From a virus: 64,000 bases of DNA. Under the pieces are notes generated by a model. It was not told the origin of the DNA and did not search any database. It saw only the letters and a program-made list of their open reading frames with translations. Location of the stretch: positions 21,828-85,827 of IMG/VR virus record IMGVR_UViG_3300027971_000039; one strand, written 5' to 3'. Below, piece after piece: positions 4,721 to 57,618 of the stretch (position 1 is the stretch's first letter; every line of letters begins with the position of its first letter). Both the position numbers and the translations under genes were made by a program.

Positions 4721-5012
4721 TCTTGTTAATTTAGGTAAATTTAAAAAAGATAAAGAAAAAGTAAAAATTCTAGAAAAATCAGAAAAAATCATTGAAGAGA
4801 TGAAGATTATTCTGTATATAATGGAATTGGCAATAAATGGGTTGAGTCACTTTAATAAATACGTATTTGTTACAGAGTGTGTATCCGTTTTACAAAGTAA
4901 TAAAATTCTTCTTGAGATCCATCTTAATAAATATATAAAAGCTGTAGAAAAAATTAAAGAAGAACAAAAAAATGGTGAACTGGAAAAACCTAGTAAAGAA
5001 GATCCCAAATAA
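4713..5012 (+). CDS. Helical hypothetical protein, 99 aa
   Basis: GTG start overlapping the previous gene by 8 nt. Lys/Glu-rich helices flank a more hydrophobic central helix (about 30-60). The last 41 nt are overlapped by the next gene in another frame, so the charged C-terminal tail is constrained by two proteins. Function unknown. Confidence 0.6.
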   Translation: MDNLVNLGKFKKDKEKVKILEKSEKIIEEMKIILYIMELAINGLSHFNKYVFVTECVSVLQSNKILLEIHLNKYIKAVEKIKEEQKNGELEKPSKEDPK

Positions 5013-5283
5013 AGTCCAACTTTCCAAACGAGGAGAGTATGAAATTGTTTGGGTTGACTCCTTTAAACAACACGACGTAGTGGGTGAGACTAGATTTGAT
5101 CGCAAGCAGATTGCTATAAAAGATAAACTGTCACCAAAGAACACAGTAATCACATACTTACACGAAGTTGCACATGGTCTTTCCGCAGAACATGACATGC
5201 AGCTTACTGAAAATCAAATTCTCGCATTAGAAAAGGGCTTGTACTATCTACTAAAAGATGGTAACTTGTTTAAGAAGGATTAA
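4972..5283 (+). CDS. Small HExxH zinc metallopeptidase-like protein
   Basis: 103 aa with YLHEVAHGL (62-70), a zincin HExxH motif, followed by E73 and H74 as possible third ligands. This resembles the ImmA/IrrE and SprT-like minimal metallopeptidases, but no partner regulator is adjacent. The fold is very short and may be a reduced domain. Cytoplasmic: no signal peptide. It overlaps the upstream gene by 41 nt and the phosphoesterase begins 2 nt after its stop. Confidence 0.65.
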   Translation: MVNWKNLVKKIPNKVQLSKRGEYEIVWVDSFKQHDVVGETRFDRKQIAIKDKLSPKNTVITYLHEVAHGLSAEHDMQLTENQILALEKGLYYLLKDGNLFKKD

Positions 5284-6192: not shown

Positions 6193-6268
6193 TGGGCAGT
6201 AGCTCAGTTGGTAGAGTGCGCCGCTGTTAACGGCGTGGTCGTAGGTTCGAACCCTACCTGCCCAGCCA
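6193..6268 (+). tRNA. tRNA-Asn (anticodon GTT)
   Basis: A full cloverleaf is readable: acceptor TGGGCAG/CTGCCCA, D stem GCTC/GAGT, anticodon stem CGCCG/CGGCG with loop CTGTTAA, T stem GTAGG/CCTAC with loop TTCGAAC, discriminator G and encoded CCA (6266-6268). The anticodon GTT at 6226-6228 reads AAC/AAT. Asn codons are frequent in this AT-rich genome, so it may supplement the host pool. Confidence 0.97.
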
Positions 6269-36820: not shown

Positions 36821-38248
36821 TTATTTTTTATATACTAGGCGTAGTTTACCACAATCATATACTCGGTATAGACCATCTTTTAGAGAGTGTTCATGCTCAG
36901 TCATTCCAATTGGAGTATTCACCAACGCCTTTTGTCTAGATTGTTTGGATATAATGATCGCTTTCTTAGAGTCATAATAAAAATAATCTGGAGGTAGTAT
37001 CCCATCTAAAACCCAGCCATTTTTAATCCAAGAAGATCCATTGGACCACCTTAAATCAATCCATGTAATAAGTTCACTATATTTATTGCTTGCAAATTTA
37101 GTTAATTTAGTAATTCCACCAGCAACAGTATAGTTTTCCTTTACACAATACCTACTAATGACATATTCTTTGTTTTTTCTATGATGCTTTCCGATTGTAA
37201 TTACAGACAGTAATTCGTCGTTAAAGTATAAACCAATTGCTTCTATAAATGAACACGACCCTAAAATGTGATATTGATTTAAAAAATACTTAGCTTCTTT
37301 TTTAGGAACTTGTCTTATTTCACATTCCCTTCCGTATATTCTTATTTCATTTTTACCTAATTTAGATCGTAGAAAGGACTTTACTTGATTGCATTTATTC
37401 TTCCATTCAAAATCAAATATATGAATTAAATCCAACCCAGCTTCTTTTGCTATATTTGTTTTATCTAGGTGATATTTAGGATACATTTTTTTATTGTATT
37501 CTGAATGCCAAAAAGCACCGTTATATTCAATAGCTATATTATACTCTTTAATTTTTAAATCAATTTGTTTTGGGTTTTTTCCACCAATAAAAGAAGATTC
37601 TGCTGTAATACCAATAGATTCTAGCCATTTTTTTATTTGTAGTTCGCCTTCCGATACAAAGAAATTACCATTTTGTAATAGTGTATTTAGATATTTTTCT
37701 TTTGTTTCTGGTAAAGACGCTGGATTCTCTACTCCATATTTTTTTAAATTCGACTCTTTTAAGCCCAATTTAATTTTTTCAGAAAACATGGGATTAGATA
37801 CACCATGATTTGTAATGGTTGTTGAAATTTGTTTTTTTCTTAATTCTGGACTATGCATGGGGGATTCAACCCCATAATTAGACTTTAATGTGTTTTTTGA
37901 TTTGTTGAGAAACTCTTTATTTTGTAGTGCGTGTTCAACGCCATACTTTTCTTTCATTGTAGAGCGAGCTTTTTTACGCACTTCTACAGCGGCACCGGCA
38001 TTAGCAACTCCATATTTTGATAGGTTGGTGGATTCTCTGCGTTTTTTAACAGAGTTCGGATGCGTGCTTGCGTTTGCTTGTTGTAAAGCCTTAAAAGAAG
38101 ATACAAATTCACCGAATTCATCATCAATAAAGATCAATTTAGTATCTTTATTATATATATCTAATTGATTTAATTTGAGTTTAACTCCATCTGGAGTCCA
38201 ATATTTACTTTCATTTCTTTTTTGAATTACACCTTTGGGTCTTGCCAT
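36821..38248 (-). CDS. Homing endonuclease with DNA-binding repeats and Vsr-like domain, 475 aa
   Basis: Five repeats of the form (K/N)(Y/H)GVxxP/A at about residues 79, 103, 126, 149 and 171, spaced 23 residues, form a DNA-reading array. A Vsr/EDxHD-like nuclease core follows: D230 (KQIDLKIKEY), E241 (AIEYNGAFWHSE) and H248. The last 150 residues are another domain of unknown role. It stands 100 nt downstream of the capsid gene without interrupting it, so it looks free-standing; neighbouring capsid introns may be its target context. Confidence 0.8.
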   Translation of the reverse strand: MARPKGVIQKRNESKYWTPDGVKLKLNQLDIYNKDTKLIFIDDEFGEFVSSFKALQQANASTHPNSVKKRRESTNLSKYGVANAGAAVEVRKKARSTMKEKYGVEHALQNKEFLNKSKNTLKSNYGVESPMHSPELRKKQISTTITNHGVSNPMFSEKIKLGLKESNLKKYGVENPASLPETKEKYLNTLLQNGNFFVSEGELQIKKWLESIGITAESSFIGGKNPKQIDLKIKEYNIAIEYNGAFWHSEYNKKMYPKYHLDKTNIAKEAGLDLIHIFDFEWKNKCNQVKSFLRSKLGKNEIRIYGRECEIRQVPKKEAKYFLNQYHILGSCSFIEAIGLYFNDELLSVITIGKHHRKNKEYVISRYCVKENYTVAGGITKLTKFASNKYSELITWIDLRWSNGSSWIKNGWVLDGILPPDYFYYDSKKAIIISKQSRQKALVNTPIGMTEHEHSLKDGLYRVYDCGKLRLVYKK

Positions 38249-38349: not shown

Positions 38350-40712
38350 TTAGCTATTAACAATGTCAGTAATAATGGTGTTACGACCGGGAGCCTGACA
38401 GAAGAGGGCCTGATCGGTGTAAAGGCGTAGCTCGTAAGCCGCGCTGTTCTCTAGGTCACGGAAGAACTCTTCACCTTGACCGGGACGCTTGAAGGTGATA
38501 TCGGTAGAACCGACGCGCATCCAGTCTTCAACGTTAAGAAGATAAGCATATCCTTGCTTAACATAAAGAGACGGCTCAATTTCAATCTCACCATTTTGTG
38601 AATGGAATTTGAGTGATTTTGATCCGTTTTCCATTTTAGCAGGACTGTAGCTCTGATCATACTTGCGTAGAGCAGCTTGGTCGGTGAGCATATTCTGCCA
38701 AGAACGGACGTTGACTAGAGCAAGAAGTGTACCTTCTTGACCTTTTTCAACGGCACGGGTTGCAGCCTGTCCGAGTTTGGTAAAGGATAGAGCAGCTGAA
38801 GCTGCGCTATAGGTGTTACCACGGAAGAGGTTGTAAGTTCCAACGTCGATGTTGAAGAGTGAACCTGAAGAAACGGTTAGAATCTTGTGGATTCCAGCGA
38901 ATTCGTTTCCGTAAGCCCCTTTGTGCCAAATAATATCACCAGAAGCGATGAGAGCAGCAACAGAAGAGTCACAGGTAACAGTCTGAGCAGACATGTCTAC
39001 TGAAAGAACCTTAACAGATGCTTTTAAGGCACCAGTTGAAGGATCGCGAATTTCAATAGGCATTCCTTCTGCCCCTGCCCAGATACCAGGTGCCCATTCA
39101 CCGGTTTCAATGGTGATAACTGCACCAAGTGCGGAGTCAACAACAGCATATCCAACCTGACCATAGAGCATTTCGATTTCGAGCTTCTTGGCCATAGAAC
39201 GGAGCATGTTTGCCACTAGGAATTTAGTAGCATCCATGAAAGCCTTCTGACCACCGAGAGCAGCACGAGAAGCAGCGACATAGCCAAGGAGTGAACGGAG
39301 AACGGCTGGAGAGCCTTTCACCTGAGCGTCTTTGACTTGTCCTGCGACTGGAGCTTGTAAGTTAACAAATTCAAATACTTAATGTATTTGTGTGGGGCTC
39401 TTTATCCCCACAGTCCCATATTTCTATGGGATTGGACTATCTTTTTTTCCAAAAACAGCTATAAAATAATTTACCATTGATTTATCTAAATTCATTAATT
39501 TAGCAATCTTATGTGGCGTATTATTATTGATATGTAAAGAAAGAATTTGTTCTTTCATTTCCATATACTTTTTTGGAAATCGAGGACTCGTGGAAGGATT
39601 ATTAACATTTTCAGTCTCACCTTCTAGTCTCTGCGCGTGTCCAGAGATTTCTTCTGAACTTCCGCTCTGATTGGCATGAGAAAGATATTCAAACTTAAAA
39701 TTTTTACGAATAACATTATATTTACAACTAGCTAAAATACTACTTCTAGAAATATTTAATTCTTTGCAAGCATTTTTAAAAGAACTAAAAACATATACTT
39801 CTGATGTAATTGTATTTATCGCTTTCACACCAACAATATGATTTGTCGATTCTTTGTTTAATTTTTTATTTCTCATTTTTTGTTTTGTTTCGTTGTCAAA
39901 AGTGTAATCATTACCACCAGTGGTTAAATTATAACCATTTGGGCGTAATGTATTATAAAATTCAATAAAATATTTTTCATAATAATTTAATGAATCTTTA
40001 TCAAAACAAGAAATAATTTCTTCAAATATAAAGTTATTAAGGCCGTATTTTTTAAAAGCCTTACCCAAAATACCAGATTTTGTCCACTTGTGTGCACCCC
40101 AACGTAAACGAACATTACGTTTGGTTTGACCAACGTATTGTTGTCCGTTAACTTTGTTAGTGATTAGGTAGATTAATCCGTATTTCATTTTATCTTTCTT
40201 TTAGCGTTCCAGGTTTTTTCCTCAATTTTCACTATACTGTTACCAGTATAGGGCCCTTAACTTAACAAGTCAAGGCGTCTTCGTCTGATCCGGCAAAAGT
40301 CACTCCGTGTTCTAACATACTGTTATCATTGAGTTTTTCTCAATAGGCTGGTCATTTCTGCCAACCTCTACCGTTTCATTTTGTTATTTCGGTAGTTCGG
40401 ACTATCGCATCAACTTTCGTTGCCAACTCGTTTAGTCTCTCACGGTGCTTTCGCTTCCGCCTTGTCACCCTCTACAGGGCTTCCAAGTCAATTAGAGTCG
40501 GTTTAGGCTCGGCTTAGAAGTTAACCGAGGATAATTGGCTGGTGATATAAATTCCCAGGTTGCTTATCCTTGCTCATGAACTTGATCTTATTTAGCAACT
40601 TAACCCCATCTGGGATTAACTCTGCAAGACGATCGGCATAAGTTTCTTTGAAAAATCCATTCAATGTTCCAACGGTATTATTTGGAGTACCGTAAGTATT
40701 TGCACTTGCCAT
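38350..40712 (-). CDS. Major capsid protein, split into three exons by two group I introns
   Basis: Exon 1 is 40712-40524 (63 codons, ending QPIILG). Exon 2 is 40315-40273 (43 nt, LEHGVTFAGSDEDA). Exon 3 is 39365-38350 (FNLQAPVAGQVKDAQ onward). Joined they give a single frame of 415 aa with no stop. The junction text matches what I know of podovirus coat proteins (GNLYHQP.ILG LEHGVTF...DEDAF NL.APVAGQ). P1 and P10 pairings support each junction. The gene follows scaffold and decoration-like genes. Without splicing, exon 1 ends at a TAA right after the splice site, so splicing is essential for virions. Confidence 0.92.
39366..40272 (-). ncRNA. Group I intron 2 in the capsid gene (907 nt, with endonuclease)
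   Basis: 5' junction GCCT^TGAC, 3' junction TTTG^TTAAC. P1 is exon GCCU with intron GGGC (40256-40253), U-G at the cut. P10 is intron AAGUUAA (40263-40257) with exon 3 UUAACUU, 7 perfect pairs. P2 is an 8-bp hairpin with GUAA loop (40251-40232). P7 strands GACTA (39629-39625) and TAGTC (39439-39435). P9-type hairpins at 39430-39415 (GAAA loop) and 39411-39392. The intron ends in G. Confidence 0.9.
39424..40188 (-). CDS. GIY-YIG homing endonuclease inside intron 2, 254 aa
   Basis: The GIY-YIG core is GLIYLIT...QQYVGQT (4-22) with R29 in RLRWGAHK and E71 in YYEKYFIEFYNT as catalytic residues. A NUMOD1-like DNA-binding segment follows (about 120-160, VFSSFKNACKELNISRSS). Residues about 168-195 are encoded by the intron's own catalytic core, and a helix-turn-helix-like part (HKIAKLMNLDKSMVNYF) follows. 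The stop codon lies in the P9 hairpin. It likely drives homing of intron 2 into intronless capsid genes. Confidence 0.9.
   Translation of the reverse strand: MKYGLIYLITNKVNGQQYVGQTKRNVRLRWGAHKWTKSGILGKAFKKYGLNNFIFEEIISCFDKDSLNYYEKYFIEFYNTLRPNGYNLTTGGNDYTFDNETKQKMRNKKLNKESTNHIVGVKAINTITSEVYVFSSFKNACKELNISRSSILASCKYNVIRKNFKFEYLSHANQSGSSEEISGHAQRLEGETENVNNPSTSPRFPKKYMEMKEQILSLHINNNTPHKIAKLMNLDKSMVNYFIAVFGKKDSPIP
40316..40523 (-). ncRNA. Group I intron 1 in the capsid gene (208 nt, no ORF)
   Basis: 5' junction CTCGGT^TAAC, 3' junction GTATG^TTAGAA. P1 is exon CUCGGU with intron GCCGAG (40513-40508), six pairs with U-G at the cut. P10 is intron UUCUAA, directly 5' of that guide, with exon 2 UUAGAA, six perfect pairs. 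P7 strands GACTA (40437-40433) and TAGTC (40404-40400) in the typical GAGACTAAA and ATAGTCCGAAC contexts. Terminal hairpins include ATTGAG/CTCAAT (40344-40328). It is a minimal intron without endonuclease. Confidence 0.92.
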
Positions 40713-54032: not shown

Positions 54033-56099
54033 TTATTGTAACATTTGGTCTGCTGTAACCGGCATATTCTCAAATGGAGGGGGCGGAGATGGCACACCTG
54101 GAACTTGTAATTGTTGGCCGGTTGCGGCTTGCACAGTTTCACCAGCTTGAACATTACCACCTTGTGTTTGCATCATTTGTTGCATTTGTGAATTTTGAAT
54201 TGATTGATTTGATGGCATTTCTTGTCCAGCTAATGGTCCTTGTTGCATACCAATAGGAGGAAGGGGTTGCTCTCCAACAAGTTGTAATAATGCTGGATCT
54301 GTTTCTCTTAATGAATTTAAATGTTTTTCAATGTGTTCTAAAACAAGACGAACAAGATCCGGGTCGCGGCGTAGATCTGGATCGGAAAGAACCGCTTTGT
54401 GTTCGTTAATATGAAGACGATGTTTGTCTAAAGGAGAAACCAAAACTTCTCTTCCTTCTAACATCTGCTCGTTTTCTGATTTAATTAAAAGCAATTCATT
54501 CATTTCACCTTCAAACATAGTTTCAATCTTACCTGTGTTAATTACTTGAAAATATTGTTCGGGTGATTTAATAAGATTCATTTGTAGCATTTGTTCAGCC
54601 ATTTGAACTCGACCGGCAGTTGTTCGAGAAAGAGGGTTACCAACATCAACAACAACGCGATTAATTGCGGAAATTTGTTCGCCTGTAAATTCTTTTAAAA
54701 GTGGGCGGTTGTTTTTACCAACCAAAGCAATAACTTTAGGAGTCGTTGCAAAGTCTTTTAAAATTTGAATGATTGCAGTTCCAACATCCTCAATAAGTTT
54801 TACATAACTTTGTTGAAGACCTGAAATATATTGCAATGACATTGATTGAACAAGTGCAAGTGCTGTACCCGATTTAAGAGAAGCTTCAGGATTTCCACGA
54901 GTTACACTATTAACACCCGAAATAGTTTCAGCTGACTGAATTAACATATTTAAAAAGTTAAATACTTCTGGTGGAGTTGATGTTAATTGAAGCGGTTCAG
55001 GACGAGCGTTACCTTCAATAATGTTCATCGCACCATCTAATGTATTAACTGCAATATCAGCACCGCGAGGAACGAATAAATTTTGAACACCAAAGGCGTT
55101 TTGGTTGGTCATAATTGTGCTGTAAAGCGAGTTAATACCTTCTTGAATAGGAAAGATATCAAACATCGGAGTATAACCGTATGGTGTGCCCATAATCTCA
55201 CGAGGAGTAATACGGAAAACAGGTAGAACACGGTACGGCATTTTTGTGTCTAATAAAACAATCTCCGAATCAACGAAAAGCATGTACCGACCGTCTGGCA
55301 TTGCTTCTGTTCGCTTATGATAAAATTCATATACCGGAATATCGTCGGTTTCATCGTTGCTAAATACAGCCAAACGATACACTGCGCTTTGGTTTTTAGG
55401 TTTTACACCAAGAAGTTTTTCTTTTAACTCGGGATATTTTGCGATTAAATTATAACGATTTTGAAATGAACGAGTTAAAATCCACTCGTTGTTCCAAGTC
55501 TCTTTTGTGCCGTCTACAACAACATCAAAAGGAGAAAGATTAGTGAATTCAAGCTCACCCTCATACACCATTTCACCAGTCTCAGGATCTGCGTCATATG
55601 CTTCGCCCGCAGTCGCGTTCCAATCTAGTTTAACATATCCAGAACCAAGAACAATTGCCATTTCGGTTGCTTTTTTAAGACAATCCTCAAGGTGTTTTTC
55701 ACGCATATAATAATCTAAAACACCATTAGCTACATAAGTTTGTGCTAATGACTTATAATCCGTGTTTACAGCTCTAGCTTCCATCATAGGACGGTTGGCT
55801 GTAATCATTGTAAAAATGTGTTGAGCGATGTTTGCAAAATGGTTAACCGGTAACATGGTAAGTTCACCCTGTTCACCAGAAAATTCAACTCTATGGCCAT
55901 ATCCAAGGTCATTAGAATAAGCCCCGTGGTAGGCCCGCCACATTCTAGACATTTTCTCCAAGTAAGCGTTGGCTCTTAGAAGGTTAAAAAAGCTATCACC
56001 TTTAGCTAAAAGGATTCCCGCGCAGTCCTCTGCTTTTTTTTGAGCAAAGTAAACTTCGTCTTGTTGTTTTTGATCCATTTTAGTAAAAGGAGTATCCAT
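54033..56099 (-). CDS. Portal protein, 688 aa
   Basis: Large portal of the P22-like size class. Supporting features: N-terminal helical stem segment, conserved MxxPVNHFANIAQHIFTMITANRP (quoted in part: PVNHFANIAQHIF), central MLGTPYGYTPMFDI-like segment (EIMGTPYGYTPMF), and a Gln/Pro-rich C-terminus for the barrel end. It directly follows the terminase gene. Forms the dodecameric DNA channel at the head vertex. Confidence 0.85.
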   Translation of the reverse strand: MDTPFTKMDQKQQDEVYFAQKKAEDCAGILLAKGDSFFNLLRANAYLEKMSRMWRAYHGAYSNDLGYGHRVEFSGEQGELTMLPVNHFANIAQHIFTMITANRPMMEARAVNTDYKSLAQTYVANGVLDYYMREKHLEDCLKKATEMAIVLGSGYVKLDWNATAGEAYDADPETGEMVYEGELEFTNLSPFDVVVDGTKETWNNEWILTRSFQNRYNLIAKYPELKEKLLGVKPKNQSAVYRLAVFSNDETDDIPVYEFYHKRTEAMPDGRYMLFVDSEIVLLDTKMPYRVLPVFRITPREIMGTPYGYTPMFDIFPIQEGINSLYSTIMTNQNAFGVQNLFVPRGADIAVNTLDGAMNIIEGNARPEPLQLTSTPPEVFNFLNMLIQSAETISGVNSVTRGNPEASLKSGTALALVQSMSLQYISGLQQSYVKLIEDVGTAIIQILKDFATTPKVIALVGKNNRPLLKEFTGEQISAINRVVVDVGNPLSRTTAGRVQMAEQMLQMNLIKSPEQYFQVINTGKIETMFEGEMNELLLIKSENEQMLEGREVLVSPLDKHRLHINEHKAVLSDPDLRRDPDLVRLVLEHIEKHLNSLRETDPALLQLVGEQPLPPIGMQQGPLAGQEMPSNQSIQNSQMQQMMQTQGGNVQAGETVQAATGQQLQVPGVPSPPPPFENMPVTADQMLQ

Positions 56100-56149: not shown

Positions 56150-56162
56150 TATAGTTGTTATT
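56150..56162 (-). promoter_or_regulatory. Late-motif copy 8, before the portal gene
   Basis: Minus-strand AATAACAACTATA, about 50 nt before the portal ATG and overlapping the terminase stop codon. CTATAC/GTATAG just downstream can form a small hairpin. Confidence 0.6.
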
Positions 56163-57618
56163 TTTTCTTTACGTTAAAAATAGCTCGATAAACATCGTTT
56201 GCTTGTTGGCCGTAAAAATTTTTAGGGTTATTAACATATAAATCTTTTAAATCATAATTATAATGAGCGGGATATGGATTTTTATTATAACTTACAGATC
56301 TTACAAGATATTTAGCGGCATCTACAGTATCATAATGACCATTATCAGGCGAACGAGCAAAAGTTGTTTTGGTTTCTACATTTTTCCATTTACAATTTCT
56401 TAGATGACGAATAAGGGTCTTACATTTTGGGTTTATTATAATTTTTTTAGTGGCAAGCATAACCCTAAGATTATTTAATGCAGATTCATTGTCATCTTTT
56501 TTAGCCGGAACAAACGTTAATTTATTATTAGATATACGAGTAATTTCTTGTGTAACAATATAATTAATGTCACTAACACGAGTGTGTGGAATTTTAATTT
56601 CATTACTTATAGGATTAGTCCAAAGTTCAATTTCTTTTTTAAGAATTTTTTCAGTTAAATCTGGTAGTTGTAATTCTTTTCCACTTAAAACTATTTCATC
56701 TTCAAAAATTATTTTATCTGCTTTAAAATCATAATAAGCGAATAAAACAGCAGTTAAGTCTTTGTACCCAAGATCCATTGCAACATATGTATCGTAAAAT
56801 GGTGGTTTGGGCCACTCTTTAATAATTTCTTTTTCTAACTCAACCGTGAATTCTGGGAATAAAACATTTTCTTCTTCTCGAATAACTTCACAAAGATATT
56901 CACGTCTAAACTGAGGAGAGTTTTCTCCACCCATTTCTTTAATTGCACGATCAATTTGTTCTTGAGCAAGCATTGGGTTATCAAAAATTGTTTTTTTAGT
57001 AAGAGTTGAGTTTAATTCAGCTTGTTCGATAAACTCATAAAAGTCATGATCTGAGTCTGTTGGGGGTGTGGAAGCTAGGATAATTTTACCACCAGTATGC
57101 ATTAGAGTTGGTAATAAAATAGATTTAACAATGTGTTTTAAATTATCACAGAAGCCAGCCTCATCTACAAGAACAAGATCAGACTTTTGACCCCGTAGGC
57201 GTTCGTAGTGTTTGTTATCACTACCGGCTAACTGAATAGAACTTCCATTAGAAAAATGGTATGTAAATTTACTTTCAATATATGTTGGCTTTAAATGCTC
57301 GGGACAGTCTTCTAAAAGCATTTTAAAAATAGGATCAAATATGTTTTTAGCGTGAAGCTTAGTGTCAGTTAGAAGCTTTACAATGGAGTTTGATTTACGA
57401 AGACATTGCTCTAAAGCGATAAGAGCAAGAGCCACAGATTTACCACTCTGACGAGCTAATAGCCATACAAGGGTAGCATTATCATCTGCGTCATTAAAGA
57501 TTTTACGCATGTCTTTTTGAACAGCGTGACATTTCCAAGACAGTTCGCCCCGAGCCCAAAGCTCAGCAACCGCATCTTTTTTGCTTATTTTATTTTTAAG
57601 AGAATGTTCCTTGCTCAT
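56158..57618 (-). CDS. terL: Terminase large subunit, 486 aa
   Basis: ATPase: Walker A ARQSGKS (55-61), Walker B LVLVDEAG (148-155), coupling motif LASTPP (181-186). Nuclease: D282 in VAMDLGYKD as first metal-binding acid and the late HYDTVDAAKYL acid. Complete packaging motor that cuts and translocates DNA through the portal. The 5' end overlaps the putative small-subunit gene by 23 nt. Confidence 0.95.
   Translation of the reverse strand: MSKEHSLKNKISKKDAVAELWARGELSWKCHAVQKDMRKIFNDADDNATLVWLLARQSGKSVALALIALEQCLRKSNSIVKLLTDTKLHAKNIFDPIFKMLLEDCPEHLKPTYIESKFTYHFSNGSSIQLAGSDNKHYERLRGQKSDLVLVDEAGFCDNLKHIVKSILLPTLMHTGGKIILASTPPTDSDHDFYEFIEQAELNSTLTKKTIFDNPMLAQEQIDRAIKEMGGENSPQFRREYLCEVIREEENVLFPEFTVELEKEIIKEWPKPPFYDTYVAMDLGYKDLTAVLFAYYDFKADKIIFEDEIVLSGKELQLPDLTEKILKKEIELWTNPISNEIKIPHTRVSDINYIVTQEITRISNNKLTFVPAKKDDNESALNNLRVMLATKKIIINPKCKTLIRHLRNCKWKNVETKTTFARSPDNGHYDTVDAAKYLVRSVSYNKNPYPAHYNYDLKDLYVNNPKNFYGQQANDVYRAIFNVKKK

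Follow-up and report, generated by a model that had tools for sequence, protein, structure and literature searches.

Several phage genes with more than one group I intron are on record. In phage Twort, orf142, which encodes the tail tube protein (PMC11878797), contains three group I introns, with a 23-nt exon between two of them (PMC10136302). The capsid genes of mycobacteriophage LittleE and lactococcal phage Tuc2009 contain an intron that is of group I or probably so, and RNA splicing was shown for LittleE (PMC3706429). In the Bastillevirinae, single phage genes were found to hold as many as three group I introns, together with endonucleases and a small exon; the genes concerned code for DNA polymerase, terminase, thymidylate synthase and ribonucleotide reductase, and the word 'capsid' is absent from the text of that report (PMC11878797). 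The major capsid protein gene of Faustovirus E12 has 13 exons (13-527 bp), five group I introns and two GIY-YIG ORFs (PMC6247863), and mitochondrial cox1 of Agaricus bisporus carries 18 group I introns, whose endonucleases are in part intact and in part eroded (PMC2987802).

The locus described here lies in a 64,000-nt stretch (the window; all positions refer to it) of an 85,827-base uncultured virus contig. Judged from sequence, its coat-protein gene on the minus strand is in three pieces, divided by two unlike group I introns that are 43 bases apart. The reading that we favour with high confidence is that both introns would splice out of the capsid transcript and that endonuclease-driven homing, probably with hitchhiking of introns that have no endonuclease, filled an intron hotspot to which they belong.

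The split capsid gene

The gene was assigned to the major capsid protein by its homology to a phage head protein family (PHROG 14242) and by the order terminase - portal - ... - capsid, the portal (54033-56099) and terminase (56158-57618) genes lying upstream. Its exons are as follows.

40524-40712, minus strand: capsid exon 1, codons 1-63, 3' end CTCGGT
40273-40315, minus strand: capsid exon 2, a 43-nt micro-exon encoding LEHGVTFAGSDEDA plus 1 nt
38350-39365, minus strand: capsid exon 3, encoding the remaining capsid residues (match to PHROG 14242, 'major head protein', E 1.5e-10)

Joining 40712-40524, 40315-40273 and 39365-38350 gave 1248 nt, that is, 415 amino acids and one terminal stop, as had been predicted (415 codons with no loss of frame) and exact to the base. 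The frame was lost with both 1-nt junction shifts tried. Read without a join, the frame from 40712 ends as soon as it enters the insert, whose first codon is a stop (GGT|TAA).

Relatives were collected by profile search (112 found, 80 kept); capsid relatives are encoded on 65 viral contigs. The alignment to unsplit coat proteins that had been proposed as a check was carried out with 37 such proteins, which read ...NLYHQPVILGLEHGVTFAASDEDAFNLNAPVAGQ... in this region; the joined protein aligned to them with no gaps at either junction. The 14 residues contributed by the micro-exon are therefore genuine capsid sequence; the unsplit relatives carry the LEHGVTFAGSDEDA residues, and the claim that 40315-40273 encodes what the flanking pieces lack was borne out. 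In a splice-aware alignment with a profile built without the window sequence, the real insert scored 129.4 and 200 dinucleotide shuffles scored 72.0 on average (sd 3.9, maximum 84.9), corresponding to z = 14.9. A search of the relatives' loci with the junction pattern gave no match because relatives differ at some bases.

Both window introns were absent from two close relatives, L001 and L002 (89-91% nucleotide identity to the window), in which other introns are present; these genes represent natural empty sites for the window introns.

Directly 3' of the capsid gene and adjoining the hotspot, a 475-aa ORF resembling homing endonucleases (DUF7487/PHROG 3339; 36821-38248, minus strand) was found, which is probably free-standing. 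A tRNA-Asn (GTT) gene is located at 6193-6268 (plus strand).

Two unlike introns and their guides

Intron positions in the coding sequence are given as CDS nucleotides (sites). The features of the two introns are listed below.

40316-40523, minus strand: 208-nt intron 1 at site 189, ORF-less, with a group I fold that lacks P7.1/P7.2 ('type A')
40508-40513, minus strand: intron 1 internal guide GCCGAG, P1 pairing with the exon 1 end CUCGGU
40495-40501, minus strand: intron 1 P3 5' strand (3' strand 40429-40423), 100% of cells paired, 5/7 pairs changed on both sides
40433-40437, minus strand: intron 1 P7 5' strand GACUA (3' strand UAGUC, 40404-40400), guanosine-binding helix
39366-40272, minus strand: 907-nt intron 2 at site 232, of group IA type with P7.1/P7.2 ('type B')
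40253-40256, minus strand: intron 2 internal guide GGGC, P1 pairing with the exon 2 end GCCU
40219-40225, minus strand: intron 2 P3 5' strand UUGAGGA (3' strand UCCUCGA, 39586-39580), several compensated versions in relatives
39625-39629, minus strand: intron 2 P7 5' strand GACUA (3' strand UAGUC, 39439-39435), GACUA/UAGUC or GCAUA/UAUGC in relatives
39424-40188, minus strand: GIY-YIG homing endonuclease ORF, 254 aa, running through the 3' half of the ribozyme core

On the window, P1, P3, P4, P5, P6, P7, P8, P9, P9.1 and P9.2 were assigned for intron 1. Its P3-P8/P4-P6 core, the P3-P7 pseudoknot order and covariation, together with P1 with U.G, P10 and a terminal G, identify it as a group I intron; it does not belong to group IA, since it is without P7.1/P7.2. 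Across ten relatives, 91.5% of the cells of the core were paired (72.9% when shuffled, 29-42% when slid), compensatory change on both sides was seen in 38 of 53 pairs, and P3, P5, P6, P7 and P8 were fully paired in every sequence; the pairing count for P1 was lowered by a few divergent alignment rows that are misaligned there.

The covariance search proposed with the original prediction was run for intron 1 with two models. The general Rfam model RF00028 missed it, giving chance matches only, even at a lax threshold, and such a match is a criterion of the model, not a defining structural feature of group I introns. A purpose-built covariance model of the intron 1 fold did find it, and also detected introns in loci outside its building set (L027, L029, L037, L099; site 171 in L035; site 189 in L041 and L100; site 177 in L032). 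These matches end at independently predicted splice boundaries, and zero matches were obtained in the intronless loci searched. The same model matched the isolated Roseobacter phage CRP-118 (L128, OR420741.1) at 1971-2193 with 99 bits, in an insert between ribonucleotide reductase fragments annotated as two genes (gp44, gp45); excision of the insert at a T...G junction gives a 616-aa ribonucleotide reductase frame.

For intron 2, P1, a P2 hairpin, P3, P7, P7.1 and P9 were assigned. It was placed in group I by P1, P10 and covarying P3 and P7, with P7.1/P7.2 of the IA type. P3 versions among type B introns include UUGAGGA/UCCUCGA, UUGGUGA/UCACCAA, CUGAAGU/ACUUCAG, UCGAAGU/ACUUCGA and others (P3 of L054 and of the site 278 intron of L099, L099_278, was identified by eye). 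Its RF00028 score (22.3 bits, E 0.0045) is below the cutoff of 50; an intron of the same type in L032 scored 50.3 bits, above the curated cutoff. The catalytic domain of the ORF inside intron 2 is of the GIY-YIG family (PF01541, E 5.6e-11; PHROG 314 homing endonuclease). As the endonuclease frame (40188-39424) takes in P7 5', P3 3' and P7 3', ribozyme core sequence doubles as the coding sequence for the last third of the protein, and for this reason the peptide NQSGS...HAQRL recurs in the GIY-YIG ORFs of type B. Group I intron ORFs that overlap core sequence have been described (PMC3984707).

At both introns the last base of the 5' exon is U and the last base of the intron is G. The predicted complementarity of P1 and P10 was borne out at each: P1 comprises 6 bp (CUCGGU/GCCGAG, U.G at the splice site) in intron 1 and 4 bp (GCCU/GGGC, U.G) in intron 2, and P10 comprises 6 bp (UUAGAA/UUCUAA) and 8 bp (UUAACUUA/UAAGUUAA), respectively. 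Guides and exons covary among relatives. Site 189 shows CUCGGU/GCCGAG or UUGGGU/GCCCAA, and site 232 GCCU/GGGC or GCGU/GCGC, where P10 covaries as well (UUAACUUA/UAAGUUAA or UCAACUUA/UGAGUUGA). Three different exon/guide pairs occur at site 63. In multi-intron genes a guide pairs on average over 5.8 bp with its own exon and over 1.7 bp with other exons. In 93% of distinct introns a stop in the upstream frame lies no more than 4 codons past the 5' splice site; at random positions the figure is 28%. The original prediction of two distinct group I introns in a coat gene is thus upheld by intact homologues, by covarying cores and guides and by the homing endonuclease of intron 2, with splicing itself inferred.

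Each intron would fold as a ribozyme, binding its own 5' splice site via P1 and its own 3' site via P10; excision of both would leave exon 1, the 43-nt exon and exon 3 as a 415-codon coat-protein mRNA. The two reactions were originally held to take place in order. This part found no support: either intron could splice first, as each has its own guide and belongs to a different subgroup, and the two reactions are probably independent.

A main reaction in which the 5' site of intron 1 is spliced to the 3' site of intron 2, removing the two introns and the 43-nt exon in one piece, is improbable. By analogy with Twort orf142, such exon skipping would be the chief danger of the layout, and skipping between neighbouring group I introns has been seen in part, at the 23-nt exon of that gene (PMC10136302) and in phage SIOphi (PMC11878797). 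Here, however, loss of the 43 nt, a length not divisible by three, would put exon 3 out of frame with exon 1 and remove residues that are present in all unsplit homologues. The guides also cross-pair poorly (P10 of the window introns, own against cross: 6 and 3 bp, 8 and 4 bp), the two introns fall into different subgroups, and in an engineered Tetrahymena model skipping was suppressed by P1/P10 elements that were distinct (PMC10136302). A minor skipped product may accompany the inclusion product.

The intron hotspot and its turnover

About 20 capsid lineages with a similar split architecture, having one to four introns each, were identified beside many intronless ones. At least 16 insertion positions are packed into 215 nt of the capsid gene, two of them being those of the window introns: sites 63, 73, 102, 147, 159, 164, 171, 177, 185, 189, 201, 203, 232, 239, 258 and 278. 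No introns were found outside CDS nt 63-278 in the relatives checked, in which tblastn matches over the remaining gene were contiguous. When 16 positions were drawn at random 200,000 times, no draw was confined to 215 nt. Nucleotide identity in the hotspot is 0.71, against 0.64 in the rest of the gene; conservation alone is insufficient to account for the clustering, because other, equally conserved stretches are intron-free. Four introns is the maximum per gene (L099, internal exons of 13, 62 and 39 nt), and 13 nt is the shortest exon; three introns each were found in L035 (exons of 18 and 14 nt) and in L036 and L042 (exons of 30 and 43 nt).

The splice search on split relatives demanded U before the intron and G at its end, so the T...G rule is not independent evidence in these sequences. 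Splice calls in L046, L050, L064, L058, L059, L081, L123 and others were rejected as artefacts of the gap-free method, the protein being contiguous with indels; extra sites in L037 and the calls in L057 were rejected likewise. The first intron of L063, called at site 147, was moved by hand to site 159, where a guide pairing CCGGU/GCCGG is present. This intron (about 4808-5094) seems to end in A (GGTAACAATATCA|AATC), where nearly all others end in G, even though its P1 and P10 are paired; it may be dead, contain a sequencing error or be a genuine exception.

That the capsid gene is dead, or that the inserts are artefacts of misassembly, is very unlikely. The window is a single metagenomic record, but exon 1, intron 1 and exon 2 are found again on an independent contig (L065), the architecture recurs in the lineages described above, and open exons with covarying guides indicate selection for splicing. 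Least probable of all is that splicing is absent and the coat protein is translated as separate polypeptides, one from exon 1 and the other from an internal GTG (39321) that opens a 323-aa ORF inside exon 3, since some 90 conserved N-terminal residues that all unsplit relatives possess would be lost and the conserved ribozyme folds and guide covariation left unexplained.

Under the favoured reading, removal of two introns by splicing, endonucleases would account for the spread. The families found by Pfam at the hotspot were as follows.

Sites 63, 102, 147, 159: LAGLIDADG
Sites 177, 189: HNH/NUMOD3
Sites 171, 201, 232, 239, 258: GIY-YIG

ORFs at site 203 are similar to those at site 201, and the two sites may represent one intron lineage offset by 2 nt. 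The GIY-YIG endonuclease of intron 2, judged by its family, would cut intronless capsid genes of co-infecting phages, into which the intron would then be copied; in the same manner, LAGLIDADG, HNH and GIY-YIG enzymes would have filled nt 63-278 with differing intron sets across the phages of the lineage. The intron sets of L001 (sites 63, 171) and L002 (sites 147, 177, 201) do not overlap that of the window.

Introns shorter than 300 nt all lack an endonuclease ORF; they were found in 13 of 14 multi-intron lineages and in 0 of 6 single-intron lineages (Fisher p 2e-4), a lead rather than proof, given the incomplete independence of the lineages. The plain reading is that short ORF-less introns persist by hitchhiking with neighbours, and intron 1, which has no endonuclease, probably persists by travelling with intron 2. 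Eroded or internally deleted endonuclease genes were observed in L035 (4059-4890, site 171), L100 (2488-3302, site 189) and L051 (6139-6640, site 201); their sequences suggest intermediate stages of endonuclease loss.

A general co-conversion signature was not found: third-position (silent-site) identity in the hotspot was not higher in split-split pairs (values for L063, whose exons were wrongly joined in this comparison, set aside). Mosaic patches were present among the closest genes only. The window and L007 (77% overall) are identical over CDS nt 135-180 and 270-315, beside intron sites, and to judge from the sequences these patches look like recent gene conversion.

We tentatively suggest, as a possibility somewhat short of even, that clusters are mobile as units: an endonuclease-bearing neighbour tens of nt away would copy the whole cluster, ORF-less introns included, into intronless genes, and resident introns would break the target sites of rivals. 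If so, the capsid gene would be an arena for rivalry between three endonuclease families over a single conserved target of 215 nt, and micro-exons would be a by-product, their lower size limit (about 13 nt) being set by the P10 and P1 footprints.

Comparison with known systems

The family forms a natural series of one to four introns at 16 sites, intronless lineages, endonucleases that are intact, eroding or absent, and empty-site alleles of about 90% identity. It allows tests of how ORF-less introns survive, of endonuclease competition for one target and of the minimum exon between two ribozymes. With standard gene callers, the major capsid protein of such phages would be lost, as its gene is in pieces down to 13 nt long and most of the introns are missed by Rfam. 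The series also implies that the most abundant virion protein of a prokaryotic virus can depend on several RNA splicing reactions.

No description of this hotspot was found in the open-access full-text literature, nor was one found of a lineage-wide set of alternative intron sites in Twort orf142. Like the window gene, orf142 encodes a phage virion protein, is interrupted by more than one group I intron and has a very short exon enclosed by two of its introns. It is, however, a different gene, its introns 2 and 3 are highly similar and its exon is skipped, whereas the window introns belong to different subgroups and are predicted not to cause skipping. LittleE and Tuc2009 have single capsid introns; the window has two and its relatives have up to four. 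Multiple introns, endonucleases and a small exon are common to the window gene and the Bastillevirinae, in which the genes reported to carry introns are those named above. Faustovirus E12 likewise has a split capsid gene, but it is a eukaryotic giant virus with mixed intron types. Cox1 of A. bisporus resembles the capsid family as one conserved gene that gathers many group I introns with intact or eroded endonucleases; it is organellar and holds its 18 introns in one gene, whereas the capsid family has alternative sets within 215 nt of a virion gene. Phage capsid introns, multiple introns per phage gene and tiny exons are thus already known, and the capsid gene described here is an extreme variant of them.
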